DNA from: Victivallales bacterium
Lineage (GTDB): Bacteria; Verrucomicrobiota; Lentisphaeria; Oligosphaerales; Oligosphaeraceae
Length of the DNA: 38,317 nucleotides
Direction of reading: 5' to 3'
Assembly (NCBI GenBank): GCA_017535315.1
Contig: JAFXUD010000026.1
Location: 1 to 38,317 of the forward strand
How positions within the stretch are numbered: position 1 is the first letter of the stretch; each line of letters begins with the position of its first letter. The notes beneath the pieces are model-generated. The model had not been told where the DNA came from and ran no database searches. It saw only the letters and a program-made list of their open reading frames with translations. A program made the position numbers and the translations under genes. Of the stretch, positions 7,774 through 38,303 are shown piece after piece.

Positions 7774-7860
7774 AGGGACAAGAGGGACGGGAGAGACGTG
7801 AGGGACAAGACAGAGATTCTTAAGCAATTATGCTGTCCCTCCAGTCTCTCCCGTCTCTTT
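7774..7860. repeat. Inverted nonamer repeat arrays (AGGGACAAG type), hairpin-forming
   Basis: Four 9-bp units lie at 7774-7809 (AGGGACAAG, AGGGACGGG, AGAGACGTG, AGGGACAAG). After a loop of about 20 bp, an inverted set runs from about 7832 to 7859 (on the other strand AGAGACGGG, AGAGACTGG, AGGGACAGC). The two arms can pair into a long imperfect hairpin between the ceramidase-like gene and the protease gene. The same nonamer, in the opposite orientation, forms the array at 29203-29238. The hairpin could end the upstream transcript, but there is no T tract of normal strength. Confidence 0.7.
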
Positions 7861-10489: not shown

Positions 10490-10535
10490 ATCAGCTCTAC
10501 GCTTTTTTCGATTTAGCACATCTACTAGCGTAATC

Positions 10536-10640
10536 GGGACGTGGGACATGGGACGTGGGACGGGGGACATGGGACGGGGGACATGGGACGGGGGACAGGG
10601 GACGCGGGACAGGGGACGGGGGACAGGGGACGCGGGACAG
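10536..10640. repeat. Perfect-phase heptamer array, 15 x GGGACNN
   Basis: Fifteen consecutive 7-bp units share GGGAC, followed by two variable bases drawn from GT, AT, GG, AG and GC, with no indel over 105 bp. On the minus strand the array begins 12 bases after the stop codon of the purine nucleoside phosphorylase gene and ends upstream of the rpsD promoter. The unit is not a multiple of three, and the short reading frames across it encode only repeat peptides. It resembles the heptanucleotide STRR sequences known from cyanobacterial intergenic DNA. Confidence 0.95.
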
Positions 10641-12694: not shown

Positions 12695-12856
12695 GTCCCT
12701 CACTGGTCGATGACCAAGATGCGCCTTGCCGCTTCGCTGCGCTATGCGGCAAGGCGCAGAGGGACTGGGATGGTCATCTGACCGTGGGTTTCGCTTCGCC
12801 GCTATTGCGGCTTCGCTCCACCCACGGCTATGCTCCTGCCGCCGCTTACGCGGCTC
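12695..12856. repeat. Nested palindromic REP cluster between ffh and ddl
   Basis: A perfect 12-bp inverted repeat GCGCCTTGCCGC / GCGGCAAGGCGC (12721-12732, 12746-12757) is enclosed by GATGACCA / TGGTCATC (12709-12716, 12771-12778) and GTCCCTC / GAGGGAC (12695-12701, 12759-12765). Next to it lies a copy of the repeat seen at 1-235: CCGTGGGT (12782-12789) to ACCCACGG (12820-12827) and the GCCGC/GCGGC hairpin up to 12856. The 12-bp hairpin may also serve as the ffh terminator. With the element at 12604 it fills this 318-bp gene-free stretch. Confidence 0.75.
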
Positions 12857-18692: not shown

Positions 18693-18816
18693 AAAGGACC
18701 TAAAGAATCAAAACGACGCAAGGGGCACAAAAAAGACAAAGGACAACTGGAAGTTTGCCTAGGCTTATGCCACTTGCGTCGTTTACGTCCTTTAGGTCGC
18801 TTAGGTCCTTTAGGTC
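18693..18816. repeat. Inverted nonamer arrays (TTTAGGTCC type), hairpin-forming
   Basis: The right arm consists of five perfect-phase 9-bp units: ACTTGCGTC, GTTTACGTC, CTTTAGGTC, GCTTAGGTC, CTTTAGGTC (18772-18816). The left arm is a degenerate complementary set (AAAGGACCT, AAAGAATCA, AAACGACGC, AAGGGGCAC; 18693-18728). The arms can pair with a loop of about 43 bp. On the minus strand the array starts 20 bases after the redoxin stop codon. The same nonamers build the composite repeat at 33847-34396. Confidence 0.8.
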
Positions 18817-25300: not shown

Positions 25301-28212
25301 ACCAAGGCACCGTCCTCAAGGGCGAAGACGCCATCGGCCTTAAAAGCGGGCTTGGCGGCGGCTTCATGCAGTTGAACGCCACCCTCGCGCCCATCCCCCT
25401 GCCCAAGCTGGCTGGCTGGCGCTTCCAGGTCAAACGCACCGCGCTGGCACGCTTCAACTTCTTCTACCGACTTATGACACTCAACAAGGAGAAGAAGTAT
25501 GTTGCCACACGCAACCTGTTTCACAGCATCTCGGGTGACGAGTTCTCGGAGAACAACTGGCTGATGACGGGCAAGACAGAGGTCGCGCCCGTCGAAAAGG
25601 TTGACCTTGCCTCCGACGAGGGATGGCAGGAAATCACCGTCTGGATTCCCGCGAAAATCCGCAGAGCCTACGGCAATGATACATTCGTTCAGGCGGGCGG
25701 TCTTGGCCTTGAGCAGACCGACGCCATGGCGAACGGCATTGCGGGAAACGGCCCTGGTGAAACCTACGCCATCCGTGCCCTGCGCCCTGTCTTCATCGGA
25801 GCACCTGCCTTGACAGGCGGCGGCGAAGTCGCCATCGGCGATGGAGAATATAGTTCAGACCTGGCGACAGCCTCCGAAAAGCTGAAAACAGCTGGCAAAG
25901 AGGGACTCAACACCATGACGCTCGCCCTTCGCAAGGGCAACAGGACCGCCTCCCGCACTGTGACCTGGCTTCAGCCTGGCAAACCTGAATATACAGTTGA
26001 CTGGGACAAGACGCAGGAGGATACCTTCATCCTGAAACCTGTCGCAGACTTCTTTCACCCCGCCTTCGCAAGTGCGCAAATCCAGTCCGCCACAGAAAAG
26101 CTTACACCTAAATACGGCAACGACGACACTCTCACGGTGGTGCTTCCCTTTACGGAGGCCGTGCAGAAGGAACTCTCTACTGGCAAACTCACCGTCAAGG
26201 TCACGATGAACGGAGAAACCAAAGAGTTCACCCTCGACACCAATTCGCCTGACCGCCTGAACGGCGGGCCACGGCTCTTCTCAATCGACGGTCTCACCCC
26301 CTTCTGCCTCACCTTCGAGAACGGCTTGAACACCCCCTACATAGCAGAAAAGGGCAGCACACAACGGACCCTTGGGCTGAATGACGCTGCCCAAGGCTCC
26401 TATCTTTCCGTGCAAAACACTGCATCAAAGCAGACTCTCCGCAGTTCATACTCCTTCCCCATCTCCATTGCCAACTATCCCGTCGCTCAGTTCCGCTATC
26501 GCGCCTGGGACATGGCCTACATCAGCCTCTACTTCGAGAACGGCCACATCACCCGCCTGACCAGCAGCGACCACCCAAGCGCGGTCACTGTCCGCCAAGG
26601 AAAAGATTTTGTGATGGATGAAAAATGGCACACCTGGACAGGGCTGGCATCTGACAGTTTCACCTCCAGTGCATACAACACCGCCCGCTTCAAACCAGGC
26701 GCCCTCCGTCTCGCCTCCGTCAGCAGCACCGACCAGACGGGACGTTTCAGCCATCTGGACTTGGACGACTTCACCTTCGGCCCCGCCGTCGCCACCAACT
26801 CACAACTCGCTTTCACTCCAAAATACTATGACGCCGACGGTGTCGCAACCATCAGGGCAGCTATCCTGCCAGGCAATGCTCCCGCCTATGACACGTCTGC
26901 CGACGCGCTAGAAAAACTGCAATGGCATGAATACAAGCCTGGCGAGAAAATCACGCCCGATTTTCCGAAGGATTTGCCAGACGGCATCTCGCATGTCGTC
27001 TTCCAGGCAACCGATTCCAAGGGAAAGCGCTCGAATTACATGGATGTTCCCTTCCTGCTGGACCGTACTCCGCTGACCTGCTCCTATTCCATACGCGAAT
27101 CCAAAGAGCCCGAGAAAAACCGCACGGAGATGCTCATTACCCTCAACAACCAAGGTGGCGCGCCCTGGTCCATCAACGAGGCAAAATTCTTCATTGCAGG
27201 AAAAGAGGAGCGGCTGATCTACTGGACGGACCGATTCGTCCACAGCCAGACCACCGACAGCCTCGTGCTCAACCACCCACTGCTTTTCATGTCCCAGTTG
27301 GACGAATCCAAGGACGGCGACACGATGCTCTTTGAAATCGACGGCATCAAGGACGGCGCTGGCAACACCACTCCGCGTTTCCAGGCCCCCTTCAAGGTCG
27401 ATTACAAGTCGGACAAGACAGGTCCCGCCTGGTACTACACCACTCCCAGCCCCTCCATCAACTGGTACTTCAACTGGGACGGCAACAAGAACACCACCAC
27501 CCAGCTCTCGCCTGGGCAGTACAATGCACTTGACACCAGCCGTCCCCTTGGTGCCTCTCCTTATCTCGTCCACTACTCGTACTATGGCACCGCCGACCTC
27601 TCGCAGGCAGTCAAGTGGAACCCAAATCAATTCCCCTGTATCTCCTTCCGTGCCTCGACCACCACGCCCCGCAAAAGCATGGTCATCCGCCTCGTGCTGA
27701 CCGCCGCTGACAAACGCGTCTGGAACATCTCCCTCACCACCCCTGGAACTGCGGGTGACGAACTTAACAAGACCGAAACCTTCAAATGGGAGAGTGGAAA
27801 GTGGATATTCTTCAGCTTCAACGTGAAGGAACTCCTGCTCAAAGCAGGCATCACCCAAGAGCAGCTTGAGAAAATTGAGTTCACCAGCATCAACTTCCAG
27901 CGGCGCGGCCTCCACCATAGGGACACCCTCCTGCTGGACGACCTCTTTATCCACGGAATGCCCGCCGATGCATCAAAGCCCGACGATTTCGTATGGTATG
28001 CCTACGATGCCAGCGGCGTTGCCTCCCTGGAGGCCACTGCCGTCAGCGTGGACGACAAGGACGAATGGACACACTCCTTCACCACCCTCCATCACGCCAA
28101 CCTGAACGACCTCCGCGCCAAGTTCAAGGGGCAGAAGTGGTTCCGCTGCCAGGCAAAAGACAAGGCTGGCAATCTCTCCGCACCCTTCTGGCTCCCCGTT
28201 TGGTCGGAATAA
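22342..28212 (+). CDS. Giant exported protein with repeated concanavalin-like lectin/laminin-G-like modules
   Basis: The 1956-residue protein has a signal peptide (MKKAILFLTFFSILAIGAP). I see a series of beta-rich modules, each with a W-x-I/V start and an F-D-D-I/L end typical of concanavalin-like sandwiches, at about 170-375 (ends FDDITLEPF), 385-575, 584-730, 736-945 (YFNESPHAWLANGGDWQI) and 966-1165. Two longer family variants lie near 1320-1475 (LDLDDFTFGP) and 1694-1870 (LLLDDLFIHG). Immunoglobulin-like stretches with DxxGN-type ends lie between them and at the C terminus (AKDKAGNLSAPFW). No catalytic motif, anchor or sorting signal is seen. It is probably a secreted or surface glycan-binding protein. 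GGAG eight bases before the ATG fixes the start. It is followed at once by a heptamer array. Confidence 0.7.
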   Translation: MKKAILFLTFFSILAIGAPMPLVRGWNELVQCRKPEGNLRFVTPWGEKARPVVFLLHEKQGGRNVRIQLSHTGWEADELLPDGRYAFVSPLSTYPRGEDGDKAEIVFKLREDEWSYYVNGELRGSMAAPFAMPGSVLWPQRPGVKLAEPMRYYAVARASFKTDFMIEPGAPNELYPWAIQLGNWHIHTAQQQAVIRPETDQKRAKEAPLTADKSPNFYSLKGGGENKDAIITTGYDFYDNYSLSASLQLEEGEAGIVFYHRDSTVRNEQGELDASKAQFYALTIRMDVPWKGNRDIRLWKQTANGQRTVLARASVPLYNNQWHLPGIKVHNNEIICLLDEAELFRCREQLPPGGKIGLFANTKEQIRFDDITLEPFTAFDLDDMAGIRHNTLYHTGGFFKTEKKHAKHEAEAGFSLYKKPAPVVLNSTAGRYEELLVLGRAQNQGLCFTAEVTPTTGAPVGLVAGWSSKGTGYYRFVITRKDGQDTSTLAKIAPDGSETVLDTYAVPQSTPSPTLTIDSTDNGNLRCFYNGLLLHYHENSAPIVGGSGLWLASNSAMKATNLSLAKFRERVLEQEQKNPIFKTDSFMRHWASPEGQWISGGTNKLWHKGDFFGDFTITLPVVVGSELHVAVPDGQEQGFITVKAEENKLTLLVTQKEGEPLAQSVELNKLEGVKQPVAKYTLRHEGSWLWLNIEEKPVLKQRLESPLKPYGTRVLAKNMTLEHMASSKVTRANVLDEYFNESPHAWLANGGDWQIINRFQCTPSWSHMIGQATDNLGAFWLKKLFKGDMTLEFYAGTRHGHYDQAGNLNCTIMSKDTTPSSGYTVACTEWDQNLSQNWTTFYRNGKPLDKTDAYLVPRRRKGMYRRILNPLVSQGRPIHGAWFYIKLRKIGEKLEYYFDDELIFTQKDSDPIQEGTLGIWTFIHSITLAQIKITFDQMAPKPIPVTFLPLEDKAPEPPATVDYDVYIENFPVDSCNPVLWNYRDSVNQGTVLKGEDAIGLKSGLGGGFMQLNATLAPIPLPKLAGWRFQVKRTALARFNFFYRLMTLNKEKKYVATRNLFHSISGDEFSENNWLMTGKTEVAPVEKVDLASDEGWQEITVWIPAKIRRAYGNDTFVQAGGLGLEQTDAMANGIAGNGPGETYAIRALRPVFIGAPALTGGGEVAIGDGEYSSDLATASEKLKTAGKEGLNTMTLALRKGNRTASRTVTWLQPGKPEYTVDWDKTQEDTFILKPVADFFHPAFASAQIQSATEKLTPKYGNDDTLTVVLPFTEAVQKELSTGKLTVKVTMNGETKEFTLDTNSPDRLNGGPRLFSIDGLTPFCLTFENGLNTPYIAEKGSTQRTLGLNDAAQGSYLSVQNTASKQTLRSSYSFPISIANYPVAQFRYRAWDMAYISLYFENGHITRLTSSDHPSAVTVRQGKDFVMDEKWHTWTGLASDSFTSSAYNTARFKPGALRLASVSSTDQTGRFSHLDLDDFTFGPAVATNSQLAFTPKYYDADGVATIRAAILPGNAPAYDTSADALEKLQWHEYKPGEKITPDFPKDLPDGISHVVFQATDSKGKRSNYMDVPFLLDRTPLTCSYSIRESKEPEKNRTEMLITLNNQGGAPWSINEAKFFIAGKEERLIYWTDRFVHSQTTDSLVLNHPLLFMSQLDESKDGDTMLFEIDGIKDGAGNTTPRFQAPFKVDYKSDKTGPAWYYTTPSPSINWYFNWDGNKNTTTQLSPGQYNALDTSRPLGASPYLVHYSYYGTADLSQAVKWNPNQFPCISFRASTTTPRKSMVIRLVLTAADKRVWNISLTTPGTAGDELNKTETFKWESGKWIFFSFNVKELLLKAGITQEQLEKIEFTSINFQRRGLHHRDTLLLDDLFIHGMPADASKPDDFVWYAYDASGVASLEATAVSVDDKDEWTHSFTTLHHANLNDLRAKFKGQKWFRCQAKDKAGNLSAPFWLPVWSE

Positions 28213-28213
28213 A

Positions 28214-28255
28214 GTGATTAGGGATTAGGGGTTAGTGATTAGGGATTAGTGATTA
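28214..28255. repeat. Heptamer tandem repeat (6 x 7 bp, GTGATTA type)
   Basis: Six units without indel begin one base after the stop codon of the 1956-residue protein gene: GTGATTA, GGGATTA, GGGGTTA, GTGATTA, GGGATTA, GTGATTA. A degenerate second heptamer stretch (CCTAGCC, ACTAGCC, ACTGCAC) follows at about 28273-28293. The main unit is the reverse complement of the array at 6375-6416. Confidence 0.85.
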
Positions 28256-29202: not shown

Positions 29203-29238
29203 CCCGTCCCTCTTGTCCCTCCCGTCCCTCTTGTCCCT
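29203..29238. repeat. Nonamer tandem repeat (4 x 9 bp, CTTGTCCCT type)
   Basis: Units CCCGTCCCT, CTTGTCCCT, CCCGTCCCT, CTTGTCCCT run without gaps and start four bases after the metallophosphoesterase stop codon. They are the reverse complement of the AGGGACAAG/AGGGACGGG nonamers at 7774-7809, more than 21 kb away. Confidence 0.85.
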
Positions 29239-32375: not shown

Positions 32376-33509
32376 ATGAAACGCAGAATTAGAATGGGTA
32401 TGGTCGGCGGCGGACCTGGCGCCTTCATCGGCGGAGTCCACCGGGTCGCGGCACGTTTTGACGGGCAGATTGAGCTCGTCTGCGGCGTCTTCAGCCAAGA
32501 TGAGGCCAAGAACAAATCCATGGCGGACGAGCTTTTCCTCCCCGTGGAGAAATGCTATCCCGACTACAAGACGATGATTGAGAAAGAGAGCATGCTCCCC
32601 GAAGGCGAGCGCATGGACTTCCTTTCCATCACCACCCCCAACAACACCCATTTTGACATCGCCATGGCGGCTCTGGACCACGGCTTCCACGTCGTCTGCG
32701 AAAAGCCCATGACCCTGAATTCCGAGCAGGCGAAGAAGCTCCAGGCGAAGGTCAAGGAGACAGGGCTGGTCTTCGTGCTGATGCACAACTACTCCGCCTA
32801 TCCGATGATTCGCCAGATGCGCAAGATGATTGCAAGTGGTGTCCTGGGTGACCTCCGCAAAATCGTCGCCAGCTATGATTTGGGCTGGCTGGCCGCCCCG
32901 AACGCGGGCAAGCAGGCTGTCTGGCGCACCAACCCCAAGTTCTCGGGCATCGCCGCCTGCGTCGGCGACATCGGCACGCACGCCGAGCAGCTTATTGAAT
33001 TCACCACTGGCCTCAAGATCGCCGAGCTCTCCGCTGACCTCGCCACCTTCGTCGAAGGGCGCACCCTCGACGACGACGCCACCATCATGCTGCGTATGAA
33101 CAACGGCTCCAAGGGCGTCATTGAGCTGAGCGAAGTCGCCTGTGGCGAGGAGAACCAGTTCAAGCTGCGCGTCTATGGCTCGCTGGGCTGCCTTGAGTGG
33201 TCGCAGCAGACCCCTGAGAACCTCTGCCTCAAGACCAACGACGCCCCGATGAAGGTTCTGCGCCGCGGCTGGGCAGGCATGGACGACGACGTCAAGGGGA
33301 TGGTCAGGCTCCCCGCTGGCCACCCCGAAGGCTTCCTGGAGGCCTTCGCCAACATCTACGCCGACTTCACCAAGGCCTTCCTCGCCTACAAGGAAGGCAA
33401 GGTCTATGACGGCTGCTATCCCACCGTCGAGGACGGCGTCCGCGAGATGGTCTTCATTGAGAAGGTCGTCGAAAGCTCCAAGAAGAACGGCGCCTGGACG
33501 AAGCTGTAA
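32376..33509 (+). CDS. Gfo/Idh/MocA family NAD(P)-dependent sugar oxidoreductase
   Basis: The 377-residue enzyme has an N-terminal Rossmann fold with the dinucleotide motif MVGGGPGAFIGG (about 9-20), SITTPNNTH (about 85-93) and the catalytic-site motif CEKPMTLN (K about 110). The C-terminal alpha/beta domain carries GDIGTHAEQLI (about 198-208) with the family His. Members oxidise or reduce sugar hydroxyls, inositols or keto sugars. A GGAGG site seven bases before the ATG and an 18-bp gap place it in one operon with the xylose-isomerase-like gene, a pairing usual for catabolism of modified sugars. Together with the intracellular GH2 enzyme this suggests oligosaccharide cleavage, then oxidation or isomerisation. 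The substrate is unknown. Confidence 0.92.
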   Translation: MKRRIRMGMVGGGPGAFIGGVHRVAARFDGQIELVCGVFSQDEAKNKSMADELFLPVEKCYPDYKTMIEKESMLPEGERMDFLSITTPNNTHFDIAMAALDHGFHVVCEKPMTLNSEQAKKLQAKVKETGLVFVLMHNYSAYPMIRQMRKMIASGVLGDLRKIVASYDLGWLAAPNAGKQAVWRTNPKFSGIAACVGDIGTHAEQLIEFTTGLKIAELSADLATFVEGRTLDDDATIMLRMNNGSKGVIELSEVACGEENQFKLRVYGSLGCLEWSQQTPENLCLKTNDAPMKVLRRGWAGMDDDVKGMVRLPAGHPEGFLEAFANIYADFTKAFLAYKEGKVYDGCYPTVEDGVREMVFIEKVVESSKKNGAWTKL

Positions 33510-33517
33510 CGGCGACT

Positions 33518-33556
33518 ACGAACGACGGGGGGCTACCGCCCCCCGAACCCCCCGCC
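33518..33556 (-). repeat. GGGGGG-arm palindromic element, copy 2 (inverted)
   Basis: On the minus strand this reads GCGGGGGGTTCGGGGGGC, then GGTAGCCCCCCGTCGTTCGTA, nearly the same as copy 1 at 28308-28347. It forms the hairpin GGGGGGC(TACC)GCCCCCC and starts nine bases after the oxidoreductase stop codon. It is the first part of a 954-bp gene-free stretch (33510-34463) that consists almost wholly of repeats. Confidence 0.8.
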
Positions 33557-33713
33557 CCTGGACAAGGGCAGGTGACGACAGAGGCTGCCGCCCACCGAAC
33601 CCCCCGCCCCTGGACAAGGGCGGGTGACGACAGAGGCTGCCGCCCACCGAACCCCCCGCCCCTGGACAAGGGCAGGTGACGACAGAGGCTGCCGCCCACC
33701 GCCTGGACAAGAG
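33557..33713. repeat. 52-bp tandem repeat, three copies plus a fragment
   Basis: CCTGGACAAGGGC starts at 33557, 33609 and 33661, and CCTGGACAAG again at 33702 (period 52, 52, 41). Each unit contains GCTGCCGCCCACCGAACCCCCC, split as GCTGCCGCCCACC plus GAACCCCCC, a copy of half of the adjacent palindromic element, so the array apparently grew from that element. Copies differ at single positions only. Confidence 0.85.
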
Positions 33714-33748
33714 GGATAACAACGATGGCCTGTTGTCGCCTAACCAAC

Positions 33749-33791
33749 CATCCCCCACGCTGTACCCTCCACGCAAACAGCGTGGGGGATG
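33749..33791. terminator. Perfect 14-bp hairpin (terminator-like)
   Basis: CATCCCCCACGCTG (33749-33762) and CAGCGTGGGGGATG (33778-33791) form a perfect stem with a 15-base loop. No T tract follows directly. It is the most stable simple hairpin behind the isomerase-oxidoreductase operon and may end or protect that transcript. Confidence 0.6.
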
Positions 33792-33846
33792 TTGCCTTTG
33801 GGGCATAACCGTTATTGTTTGAAAAGGATATTCTTTTTTCAAAAAT

Positions 33847-34396
33847 GCTCTGTTCCCCATGAGGGTAGCTTAAACAGCCAAAGACTTCTCCCAATCCTCA
33901 TGGTATGTAAAGGGACCTAAAAGACGAAAGAGACCTAAAGGACGCAAGTGGCACAGAAACAGAGCAGGGGAAAAAGAGGGCTGCCAGGTCATGCGCCACT
34001 TGCGTCGTTTAGGTCGTTTAGGTCCTTTAGGTCCTTTACCAACCCCCATGAGGGTAGGTAAAACGGGCCAAGGTTCCACCAAATCCCCATGATTTGCAAA
34101 AAGGACCTAAAAGACGAAAGAGACCTAAAGGACGCAAGTGGCACAGAAACAGAGCAGGGGAAAAAGAGGGCTGCCAGGTCATACGCCACTTGCGTCCTTT
34201 AGGTCCTTTACCAACCCCCATGAGGGTAGGTAAAACGGGCCAAGGTTCCGCCAAATCCCCATGATTTGCAAAAAGGACGCAAGTGGCACAGAAACAGAGC
34301 GGGGAAAAAAGAGGGCTGCCAGGTCATGCGCCACTTGCGTCGTTTAGGTCCTTTAGATCCTTTAGGTCCTTTACCAACCCGCATGGGGAACAGAGC
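33847..34396. repeat. 550-bp composite repeat bounded by a perfect 14-bp inverted repeat
   Basis: The ends GCTCTGTTCCCCAT (33847-33860) and ATGGGGAACAGAGC (34383-34396) are perfect inverted repeats. Between them lie three direct units starting at CCCCATGAGGG (33855-34043, 34044-34215, 34216-34377; 189, 172 and 162 bp). Each unit is itself an inverted array: 9-bp words such as AAAGGACCT, AAGAGACCT, AAAGGACGC on the left and CTTTAGGTC, CGTTTAGGT on the right, around a conserved centre with GGCTGCCAGGTCAT. Length differences are whole numbers of nonamers. Reading frames here give only repeated low-complexity peptides. Confidence 0.85.
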
Positions 34397-34463
34397 GTTC
34401 AAAAAAGTATCGATTGCCTAACAACTTGCGCGCAAAAACAACTCCAGCATCAGGAGAGCATCC

Positions 34464-37400
34464 ATGCAAAGCACCCTCGAAATCCCCATGCTCAGCCACG
34501 GTGGCATCCAGACCATTTTTGGGGAGCATCCTGCGACTCCCACGCAGCTCGTCTATCTCGATTTTGACGGCGCGGTAACCTCCTACGTCAACGCCGACCT
34601 CGGCGTCTCCATCGACAGTGTGACCGTCGAGGATTCTGGATTCGGCGACGGCGACATCGCCCTCATCATAGCTGCCCTCAACGGCATGTTCGACGACGTT
34701 GTTTTCACCTCCGCGCTACCCGCCGACGGCGAGTTCTCCACCATCTACGTTGGCGTCACCTCCGCCTTCGATGAATACGGCACCTTCCTCGGCCTAGCCG
34801 AGACAATCGACTCTGGCAACCAAATCCGCGACGACAACGCATTCGTTCTTCTCGACTCGTCAGCCTCCGCCGAACTCGTCGTCTCCGTCATCGCGCACGA
34901 GACAGAGCACATTGTCCACGGCATGGAACACGGCGGCGAAAGCCTGGCGAGGTTCGCAGAAACGTATGTTGACGTTAACAGCGGGGAAGTAGTAAGCAAC
35001 ATCAGAATAGAGGGTAAAGTAACTGTAAACAGCGGGGGCACCGCTATAAACACGTCTGTGTGTGCGTTGCAAATATACACTCCGCGTAGATTAATCAGTG
35101 GAAGACTGGACGTTAAAGACGGTGGTGAGGCAGACAAAACGAAAGTGACCGAAGGCGGAGAGGTGTTCGTTTATGGTGGTGGCGTGGCGAACGAAACGAC
35201 CGTAATGAATAGAGGAAGCATGTACATTCATGGAGGCACGGCAAACAATACGACTCTTCGCCCTGGTGTCACTGAGGCTGGTATATTGATGCTCAAGAAC
35301 GGCACGGTAAACGCCACCACTGTGAGCTGCGGAAGCATGGAAGTTAATGGAGGTACTGCGAACGGCACAACCCTGAAATACGGCGGGATATTGATGGTTT
35401 CCGGCGGGACGGTGAACGATACTACCATAGAAAACGGTGGATCATTGAACCTTAACAATGGCACTGTAAACCGCACAACTGTGCTAAACGGCGGAATACT
35501 GAACGTTCTGGGAGGCAGGGTAAACTTCTCAATTGTGAGCAGCGGCGGAACACTGAACATTAACGAGGGCACGGCAAACAACACCACCCTGAGCGGCGGC
35601 AAGATGCGCGTTTCCAGCGGCGGCAAGGTAACAGGCACGCTGACCATCGCAGAGGGGGCGTCCGTCTCCGCATACGATGGAAGCATCATCGACTTTGACA
35701 TCTCGACACGCTCGCCATCCAACTCGCCTCTCGTCAACAACCTGTCCCTGGTTAATGGCAATCCATCATTTTCGCTCACAGTCTCCGACTCACAAGCTGG
35801 CGGCACATATATTCTGGCCGAGGGCGTAGCAACATTCGACAAGACCATCACCGTAATGAACAGCGGCACGAAGATTGGCACACTCACTGTAGATGAAAAA
35901 CATTTAATAGGTAATACGAGGTACTTGCTTACCCTGAATGACGGGAGCCTCACGCTCTCGATGGCTGTCGGAATCACCAAATTCACGGGCGACCTTACCG
36001 ATTATATGTATATCACAGACGGCATGTTGGCGTCTGATGTCAATGTCCACGACGGCGGCTGCCTATTTATCAGTTCTGGCGGCGTGTCTGAGGATACCAC
36101 GCTCAACTACGACGGCGACATGTATGTCTCCAATGGCGGGGAGGCCTACCGCACCACGATTAACTACCGAGGCAGGCTGTATGTCTCCTCAGGCGGCATG
36201 GCAAAAAACACCACGCTCTCGGAGAGCGGGTTCATTTATGTCGAGTCAGACGGCATGGCGAACAGCGTCACGGTTGAAGGCGGCAAGCTGATTGTTTCCG
36301 ATTGCGGCACGGTGAACGGTTTCACGGTCAGCAGCGGTGGCACTATTTATCTCTCATCTGGCGGAAAAATGACGGGACGGATGTCTTTTGAGGATGGCGC
36401 AAAGGTTAACGCAAACGACGGCTTTATTCTCGACTTCGACATATCGGTAGCCACCGCCGATTCCCCTCTCGTGAGCAATCTATCCGTCGTCTGGAACAAG
36501 TCTCCGAATATTACGATGACAGTTTCCAGCACGCAGGCGGGCGGTTTGTATTTCCTTGCCGACGGCGCGGCGGGATTCAACAAGAGCATCACCGTCGTGA
36601 ACCCTCTCGGCGATAAACTCGCCACGCTCACAGTCGGCGGCGGCACTGCCCAAATCAACGGCAAGGAGTCCATGCTGATTTTGGATGACGATGAACTCAA
36701 ACTTGCCATTGGCGTCTTCACAGGAACCCTGAACAATGAGACAAAGGACATCAAAGAGATGTACGCGAGCGGAGTCAACGTCAACGCTGGCGGCATCCTG
36801 AACGTCCTTGACGGCGGCACGGCGGAGAAGACATCGGTCAACAGCATGGGCCGCGTTTTTGTCTACTCTGGCGGCGTGGCGGAGGACACCGCTGTCAACA
36901 GAGGCGGAACTATGTGCATCTCCAACGGCACTTTGAAGGGCTCTAATGATATCGCACCATACGCGACTCTCAAGGCGGCAGGCCTCATGACCATCGCAGA
37001 CGGCGCGGTTGTCAACGCCTACAACGGGAGCGTCATCGACTTCGACATCACGGCGCTCTCGCCAGATGACACGCCCATCGTCAACGACCTTTCCCGAATC
37101 AACGGTGTCCCCTCCTACACCGTCACCGTCATGGCGGAGCAGGAGAAGGGCGATTACATCCTTGCTGACGACGCGGGAAATTTCAACGGCACCCTGACCG
37201 TCAAATGCGCGAACGAGGCGGATCTCACCCTCACCGTAGGCGACGCATACGTCGCGGGCGGCGAGCAGGCATACTCGCTCGTCGTCACAGGCGGGCAGCT
37301 GGTCTTCTCCGTCATGGAGCTCGACACGACACCGCCCGACGCGCCCGAGCTCACGCTGTCGGGGGACTCCGCCTCCAACAAACTCGTTGTCACCGCCGCC

Positions 37401-38303
37401 TGGGACGCGGAGGACGCCGTCTGCCGCTACGCGCTGGACGGCGCGGAGGCCCTGCAGGATTATGCAGGGCCGCTGCGGCTCCCCTTCGGCGATGACGCCA
37501 GCGTCCGTTTCCAGACCGAAGACGCGGCAGGGAACACGGCCGACCGCACGCTCGACCTGATGTTCGGGCGCGTCACGGGCGTGTGGCGCGACGGGTACTT
37601 CGCCCGCAACTGCTCCGTCGAGGCAATCGACCTAGAGCCGCTTGAGGGCCTCAACCTCATCAGCGACATCTTCGCGGGCTCCGACGACTCCACCATCCTG
37701 GTTCTAACCGACGACGGCAAGGGAGACGCCCTCTTCCTGGACGACATCTACTCCGCCGCCCCAGATGTTTCCTCCAAGGCGCGCATCAGCAAGGTCAACG
37801 AGATCATGGCGGGCGCGGGCGATGACGTCATTGACCTGACCAGCGTGCGGTTCGACTGCACCGACGGGGGCGTCGCCGTGCATGGCGGGCTGGGCAATGA
37901 CGTGATCTGGGCGAACTGCGGCGTCAACAGGCTCTTCGGAGACGCGGGCAATGACCGCATCGTCGGCGGCAGCGGCGACGATGTGATTGTCGGGGGCGCG
38001 GGCGATGACACTCTGCACGGTGGCGGCGGCGACGACATCTTCTGCTTCGGCAGCGACTGGGGGAGGGACGCCGTCGCGCAGTCGGAGGGCAGCGTCACGC
38101 TCTGGTTCAAGGAAGGCGACGAGTCGAAGTGGGACAGCGAAAAGCTGACCTACACGGACGGCACGAACTCCGTGGCGGTGACAGGCATCGATAAGGTGAT
38201 GCTCCTCTTCGGAGATTATGATGCCCTGTTCGCCACTGGCGCCTTCGACGCCTTCACCAGCGACAGGATCCTCGATGGCAGGAACTGGGCCATCCTTAAA
38301 TAA
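34464..38303 (+). CDS. Surface protein: zincin-like head, AIDA-type repeats, RTX calcium-binding tail
   Basis: The 1279-residue protein has no classical signal peptide. Residues 29-157 form a head with VYLDFDGA (30-37) and a zinc-protease-like motif HETEHIVHGMEH (H145, E146, H149, H156). Residues about 165-950 hold three blocks of AIDA-I-type repeats of 17-20 residues (GG...V..GG.ANNTTL). Each block ends in a capping segment with DGSIIDFDI (near 407, 652, 854) and LTV..Y.L.L strands. TTPPDAPELTLSGD (about 954) opens an immunoglobulin-like domain. Residues about 1114-1185 carry RTX nonapeptides (GGLGNDVIW, GDAGNDRIVGG, GGAGDDTLHGG). RTX repeats and lack of a signal peptide suggest type I secretion, not an autotransporter: there is no C-terminal beta-barrel. 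AGGAG seven bases before the ATG fixes the start. Confidence 0.82.
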   Translation: MQSTLEIPMLSHGGIQTIFGEHPATPTQLVYLDFDGAVTSYVNADLGVSIDSVTVEDSGFGDGDIALIIAALNGMFDDVVFTSALPADGEFSTIYVGVTSAFDEYGTFLGLAETIDSGNQIRDDNAFVLLDSSASAELVVSVIAHETEHIVHGMEHGGESLARFAETYVDVNSGEVVSNIRIEGKVTVNSGGTAINTSVCALQIYTPRRLISGRLDVKDGGEADKTKVTEGGEVFVYGGGVANETTVMNRGSMYIHGGTANNTTLRPGVTEAGILMLKNGTVNATTVSCGSMEVNGGTANGTTLKYGGILMVSGGTVNDTTIENGGSLNLNNGTVNRTTVLNGGILNVLGGRVNFSIVSSGGTLNINEGTANNTTLSGGKMRVSSGGKVTGTLTIAEGASVSAYDGSIIDFDISTRSPSNSPLVNNLSLVNGNPSFSLTVSDSQAGGTYILAEGVATFDKTITVMNSGTKIGTLTVDEKHLIGNTRYLLTLNDGSLTLSMAVGITKFTGDLTDYMYITDGMLASDVNVHDGGCLFISSGGVSEDTTLNYDGDMYVSNGGEAYRTTINYRGRLYVSSGGMAKNTTLSESGFIYVESDGMANSVTVEGGKLIVSDCGTVNGFTVSSGGTIYLSSGGKMTGRMSFEDGAKVNANDGFILDFDISVATADSPLVSNLSVVWNKSPNITMTVSSTQAGGLYFLADGAAGFNKSITVVNPLGDKLATLTVGGGTAQINGKESMLILDDDELKLAIGVFTGTLNNETKDIKEMYASGVNVNAGGILNVLDGGTAEKTSVNSMGRVFVYSGGVAEDTAVNRGGTMCISNGTLKGSNDIAPYATLKAAGLMTIADGAVVNAYNGSVIDFDITALSPDDTPIVNDLSRINGVPSYTVTVMAEQEKGDYILADDAGNFNGTLTVKCANEADLTLTVGDAYVAGGEQAYSLVVTGGQLVFSVMELDTTPPDAPELTLSGDSASNKLVVTAAWDAEDAVCRYALDGAEALQDYAGPLRLPFGDDASVRFQTEDAAGNTADRTLDLMFGRVTGVWRDGYFARNCSVEAIDLEPLEGLNLISDIFAGSDDSTILVLTDDGKGDALFLDDIYSAAPDVSSKARISKVNEIMAGAGDDVIDLTSVRFDCTDGGVAVHGGLGNDVIWANCGVNRLFGDAGNDRIVGGSGDDVIVGGAGDDTLHGGGGDDIFCFGSDWGRDAVAQSEGSVTLWFKEGDESKWDSEKLTYTDGTNSVAVTGIDKVMLLFGDYDALFATGAFDAFTSDRILDGRNWAILK

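Follow-up and report, generated by a model that had tools for sequence, protein, structure and literature searches.

Among described repeats, those nearest to the nonamer hairpins reported here are the G-rich heptamers GGGNATC and GGGGA(C/T)T, intergenic repeats of Xanthomonas and Nostoc (Rehm et al. 2015, PMC4692102). For the Xanthomonas heptamers, inverted pairs have been reported and the repeat type is usually preserved between two species; that 7-nt repeats are over-represented in bacteria is on record but has received little study (PMC4692102). Direct repeats of another heptamer, TAACTGA, occur in Beggiatoaceae, cyanobacteria and Bacteroidetes (MacGregor 2015, PMC4679880), and the REP/BIME/REPIN sequences with RAYT include GTAG- and CGTC-tagged REPs (PMC3733652). 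We analyzed a stretch of 38,317 nucleotides from a Victivallales bacterium (assembly GCA_017535315.1, contig JAFXUD010000026.1, positions 1 to 38,317), referred to below as the window, with a focus on a 550-bp element at 33847-34396. In our view, this element is very probably a MITE-type insertion whose interior hairpin was triplicated in place, and the nonamer hairpins within it belong to an independent intergenic class.

Like the Xanthomonas and Nostoc heptamers (PMC4692102), the repeats of this genome are intergenic, fixed-unit and tandem, their units combining an invariant G-rich core with a position that varies, and (GGGACNN)n heptamers are present here too. In our case, however, nonamers dominate, variation falls on the two bases that follow the core, and hairpin pairs are frequent; the repeats are found in Lentisphaerae-like, chlamydial, planctomycete and acidobacterial hosts. 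Repeat type is usually preserved between the two Xanthomonas species, whereas the places that we compared lack arrays. With units of 9 nt, the repeats of the window fall outside the 7-nt class of Rehm et al. (2015), and the heptamers of the same genome form a sister class. Nor do the GGACCTAAA words of the window, by inspection, have the regular GGG runs of a potential G-quadruplex; such runs are present in GGGACGGGA words elsewhere in the genome.

The TAACTGA repeats (PMC4679880) share with ours an intergenic position, a fixed unit and a patchy, apparently horizontal distribution, but their unit is 7 nt, they are direct with almost no inverted ones, and they sit just before start codons. REP/BIME/REPIN sequences (PMC3733652) are likewise dispersed intergenic palindromes and also occur in PVC bacteria. 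The arms here, in contrast, are longer and made of tandem words, Y1-transposase genes are not adjacent, and no tetranucleotide tag is apparent at the hairpin foot on an informal look. A search of the literature, including exact-sequence searches, found no description of the nonamer hairpins, most subscription papers being outside its scope. In eukaryotes, foldback elements have inverted repeats built of short tandem sub-repeats; they differ from the present element in size and host and, probably, in transposase.

The 550-bp element and its terminal-repeat family

A preliminary description of the window had seen three direct hairpin units enclosed by a perfect 14-bp inverted repeat, and both hold. 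The repeat is exact at 33847-33860 and 34383-34396 (ends GCTCTGTTCCCCAT / ATGGGGAACAGAGC) and, with mismatches included, reaches about 22 bp. The left terminal inverted repeat (TGCTCTGTTCCCCATGAGGGTAG) occupies 33846-33868 on the plus strand, and the right one, placed by terminal-repeat matches and flank comparison, 34375-34397 on the minus strand. Comparison of the flanks outside these ends revealed TTCAAAAA on both sides, at 33838-33845 and 34398-34405, which is a target-site duplication at the offset shared by other family copies.

With up to 3 mismatches allowed, the 21-bp terminal word CTCTGTTCCCCATGAGGGTAG is matched 44 times in the genome (4.9 Mb) and the reversed control not once. The ends are [T/C]GCTMTGTTCCCCAWGAGGGTAG in inverted orientation (CGCTMTGTTCCCC-type ends). 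Target-site duplications are 8 bp long and occur at a single offset, one base outside the GCT...AGC ends, with no matching of flanks at any other offset. Among the 16 inverted pairs examined in this genome, whose ends are 137-684 bp apart, 10 have flanking 8-mers that agree at 7 or more of 8 positions; random pairing of left and right flanks gave a mean of 0.75 matching pairs and a maximum of 6 in 10,000 shuffles. When related genomes are included, perfect 8-bp duplications number 19 among 24 elements, all of which were listed because their flanks match at 6 or more of 8 positions. A second copy with nonamer hairpins, C67:20105-20265, carries TTATGAAT on both flanks, and a congener MITE with unrelated nonamer arms (CACAGATTA) has the target-site duplication TTTTGAAA. 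Of 29 genomes from the bacterial family, 11 carry the ends, with zero control matches, and copies there also have perfect 8-bp duplications.

Dispersed copies with the same ends and 8-bp duplications indicate a MITE-type insertion, and the terminal-repeat family is of this non-autonomous type. Of the possibilities raised in the preliminary description, a non-autonomous transposable element is thus the one that holds for the 14-bp ends, and further genomic copies with these ends, the lack of which would have refuted it, do exist. The element qualifies as a MITE on all defining features that could be decided: the family is short (115-684 bp between the ends), non-coding and multi-copy, with terminal inverted repeats and target-site duplications of fixed length. 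The difference lies in the interior, which here is a triplicated hairpin of 9-bp words. No genes were called inside short inverted pairs in a 25% sample of the genome. In the same sample, neither an autonomous copy nor a transposase with these ends, which might act in trans, was found, and relaxing the ends in the search for an autonomous element yielded no pair flanked by a target duplication. Loss of insertion sequences is common in MAGs. Synteny with the congener stops at the gene upstream of the element, so that no strictly empty orthologous site emerged for this insertion. The MITE is ordinary in kind, and we found no published description of this family.

The interiors of family copies vary, with GC palindromes in most copies seen and GAC-nonamer hairpins in two copies of this genome. 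Genome G001, of the same genus, has MITEs at L370:223-441 and in L373 that share the family ends but have inverted arms of a different nonamer, CACAGATTA.

Unit alignment divides the interior on the plus strand into three units that align along their length: 33858-34046 (189 bp), a subterminal spacer followed by a nonamer hairpin, 34047-34218 (172 bp) and 34219-34388 (about 170 bp). In the first hairpin (33910-34037), an apical stem stands between four GAC words on the left and four GTC words on the right, and the RNA fold reaches -69.4 kcal/mol with a z-score of -11.6. The hairpins of units 2 (about 34100-34209) and 3 (34272-34372) have RNA-fold z-scores of -7.5 and -4.2, and the whole 550 nt, folded as single-stranded DNA, gives a z-score of -13 relative to shuffled sequence. 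As had been proposed, arms differ by exact multiples of nonamers: the right arm of unit 2 is short by 18 nt (two nonamers) and the left arm of unit 3 by exactly 27 nt (three nonamers). The hairpin centre GACGCAAGTGGCACA...GCCACTTGCGTC is conserved among the three units. A related single hairpin at 18693-18816 (z -5.1) lacks the terminal repeats and has the same centre; its apex, GACGCAAG[TG]GGCAC / GCCACTTGCGTC, is common to all four hairpins and places it in the same subfamily. The window contains 20 occurrences of GGTCSTTTAGGTC at up to 2 mismatches, versus 1.1 expected, which together with the fold z-scores excludes a chance origin of the nonamer hairpins. At each unit junction, what reads as a right subterminal sequence continues into a left one (ACCAACCCCCATGAGGGTAGG; ...TTTACCAACCCCCATGAGGGTAGGTAAA...), the join falling at CATG, a word that is present in both element ends.

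The very large surface protein gene noted downstream spans 34464-38303 and encodes 1279 aa with AIDA and RTX repeats. On the other side, between an oxidoreductase gene and the MITE, a GC-rich palindromic repeat of 52 bp (CCCGCCCCTGGACAAGGGCGGGTGACGACAGAGGCTGCCGCC) stands twice in tandem at 33600-33701, followed by a perfect 15-bp hairpin (33749-33791).

Arrays of 7- and 9-nt units in the genome

The preliminary description had treated ends and hairpins as one structured element. While the ends are indeed transposon-like, the nonamer hairpins are a different and wider repeat class, separate from the MITE ends and mostly without them. We used a sample of 1.24 Mb of the 4.9-Mb genome, in which genes were called with a simple codon model and 127 kb were non-coding. 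A motif-free lag scan of the non-coding DNA gave 60 loci of period 9, 29 of period 7 and 4 of period 5, and no tandem loci of period 6, 8, 10, 11 or 12; longer periods were few and included multiples of 7 and 9. Coding DNA gave mostly multiples of three. Pairs of GGAC in non-coding DNA are spaced in the same manner, with 80 at distance 9, 104 at distance 7 and at most 2 each at 8, 10, 11 and 13. The nonamer cores are GGGACNNGA, SGACCTAAA and TCTAGANNN, and the heptamer cores NNNTTAG and GGGACNN. GGAC as the sole definition of the repeats was dropped, since the unbiased scan found TTAG and TCTAGA cores with the same 7/9-nt units.

The sample holds 53 array clusters per 1.24 Mb. GAC arrays often form hairpins, and the purine-rich GAC arm precedes its partner in 23 of 26 neighbours and follows it in 3. 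Arm numbers are unequal in some of these hairpins, the extreme being C49:94436, where a single left arm stands against seven right ones, a one-sided amplification. Such asymmetry, along with tandem arms, supports within this genome the earlier suggestion of expansion by whole units. Arms pair slightly better within than between hairpins (13/1000 permutations), and strict maintenance of pairing is unsupported in this genome.

Other members of the wider class lie in the window itself. They include a nonamer hairpin of GGGACNNGA words at 7776-7855, a single-armed heptamer array, (GGGACNN)x15, at 10532-10638 on the plus strand, and a GTC-period-9 array of four words at 29206-29235 on the minus strand, 7 nt past a stop codon. 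A TTAG-type heptamer array (GATTAGGGATTAGGGGTTAGTGATTAG) at 28212-28242 represents a second heptamer family besides GGGACNN. The intergenic stretch of about 136 bp at 12720-12855 has at least 10 copies (77-89% identical) in the same-genus genome G001 and is another dispersed repeat family.

Gene context, distribution and alternative readings

In tandem gene gaps of this genome, 28 of 39 arrays lie nearer the upstream stop (median 30 nt) than the next start. Such a position would be expected if the nonamer hairpins were functional 3'-end elements, that is, bidirectional terminators or mRNA-end stabilisers behind genes, spread by the MITE. The constant order of the arms (purine-rich arm first in 23/26) speaks for the same reading, as do data from a chlamydial MAG, in which convergent genes flank 6 of 14 clusters and divergent genes 1, and in which an arm scores a mean of 34.5 against its own partner and 15.4 against others (0/1000 permutations). 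However, clusters of the present genome lie between divergent genes in 9 of 53 cases and between convergent genes in 5, near the respective shares of intergenic bases (23% and 14%), and no terminator-like site was found within 33500-34500. Arrays are also missing from the intergenic places that could be compared in a genome of the same genus (one of these places is bracketed on both sides, and three are bracketed on one side or across two contigs), and this absence argues against an essential conserved role. The position of arrays behind stops fits tolerated insertions as well as transcript-end elements. A 3'-end function is therefore possible but, on this balance, doubtful.

The word pattern extends beyond this genome. 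In a survey of 388 Verrucomicrobiota genomes, GACNNAARSGACNNAARSGAC was found in 45, with up to 113 occurrences per genome and controls mostly zero, and was absent from most near relatives. Other genomes and MAGs were picked for holding a related word, so that their counts do not represent prevalence: 148, 299 and 59 matches in Chlamydiae, 69 in Parachlamydiales, 128 in Hydrogenedentota, 55 in Acidobacteria gp7, 187 in Verrucomicrobiales, 41 in Planctomicrobium and 19 in Pirellulales. The Bacillus and Desulfogranum genomes examined gave no matches. Arrays of GGAC-cored nonamers, often as hairpins, are patchy in Verrucomicrobiota genomes and in MAGs of Chlamydiae, Planctomycetes, Hydrogenedentota and Acidobacteria. 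Viral contigs with the word pattern were set aside as coding repeats by their look (several collagen-like by eye), without hairpins.

Two MAGs offer observations of their own. A chlamydial MAG (G408) has, besides its nonamer hairpins, octamer arrays, ACGCAAAGGCGCAAAG, at L343:16766 and L352:19013; an 8-nt unit was unseen in the sample of the Victivallales genome. In an uncultured Lentisphaerae MAG (G040; L133, L134, L142), several nonamer hairpins stand, by eye, directly after the stops of apparent PEP-CTERM protein genes and before pilin-like genes.

One reading of this distribution is that hairpins of GGAC words with 7/9-nt spacing are a pan-bacterial class, spread horizontally through PVC bacteria, Acidobacteria and Hydrogenedentota, written or maintained by dedicated machinery and picked up by MITEs. 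We consider it unlikely. That the 7- and 9-nt units reflect dedicated machinery in scattered lineages, for example a protein or enzyme that would recognise or write GGAC words at fixed spacing, we hold to be quite improbable as well. Unit lengths of exclusively 7 or 9 nt, a core that is kept while neighbouring bases vary, and the recurrence of the GGAC core across several phyla, where controls are near zero, could all point to it, and absence from most near relatives is as expected of a horizontally spread system. On the other hand, near-perfect hairpins of the chlamydial genome use spacings of 7, 9 and 10, so the spacing is not universal, and 7-/9-nt arrays with other cores (TTAG, TCTAGA) in the present genome mean that the core is not universal either.

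The preliminary description had also allowed for a non-coding RNA. A structured RNA gene with three repeated domains would account for the very strong folding (z down to -11.6) and for the strict conservation of the hairpin centre between units, but it is very unlikely. Rfam gave 0 matches in the window at gathering score, either strand would form the palindromic stems, units and arms change in length by whole words, and the locus is enclosed by transposon ends with a target duplication. The Rfam hits at E<1 were rejected; nearly all were plant or animal microRNA models far below gathering scores, a range in which any long hairpin scores.

Mobilisation of the hairpins by a Y1 (RAYT) transposase, as REP/BIME-type sequences, is most improbable: the genome has three Y1-transposase genes, one of them about 50 bp from a MITE copy, but the loci around the three hold no period-7/9 GAC array, two of the three are flanked by other palindromes, and target duplications are not known from Y1 transposition, in contrast to the 8-bp duplications seen here. 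Two RAYT-like Y1 genes, at G000 C58:17290 and C78:90597 (L254, L255), lie amid large clusters of GTGGGTGGAGCGAAGC / AGCCCCGTAGGGGC palindromes, which are probably a BIME-type family of the genome.

Proposed origin and significance

The preferred reading remains a MITE-type insertion with a triplicated interior, and the MITE may merely happen to carry nonamer hairpins. A DDE-type transposase making 8-bp duplications would have acted in trans to move the element, whose interior would initially have been one nonamer-word hairpin with short spacers. Because each unit junction joins a right subterminal end to a left one, triplication in place probably occurred by recombination or slippage at the short word CATG of both ends, as read from this one locus. 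Slippage between 9-bp words would further alter arm length by whole nonamers, and single arms do differ by whole nonamers, the signature of such slippage. The nonamer hairpins themselves may persist mainly by amplifying and by copying one arm from the other while tolerated behind genes, possibly with side effects on transcript ends. Neutral slippage leaves unexplained why units are of 7 and 9 nt only, and why GGAC is retained as a core although the next two bases are variable.

The best reading of the hairpins would be self-amplifying intergenic DNA tolerated behind genes, rather than a dedicated RNA gene. They are of more interest than the MITE, in that nearly every short intergenic tandem repeat here has a 7- or 9-nt unit. 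Near-identical nonamer hairpins recur in distant phyla, yet most near relatives lack them. Where a genome contains variable arrays in dozens to hundreds, the process that generates them becomes open to testing.
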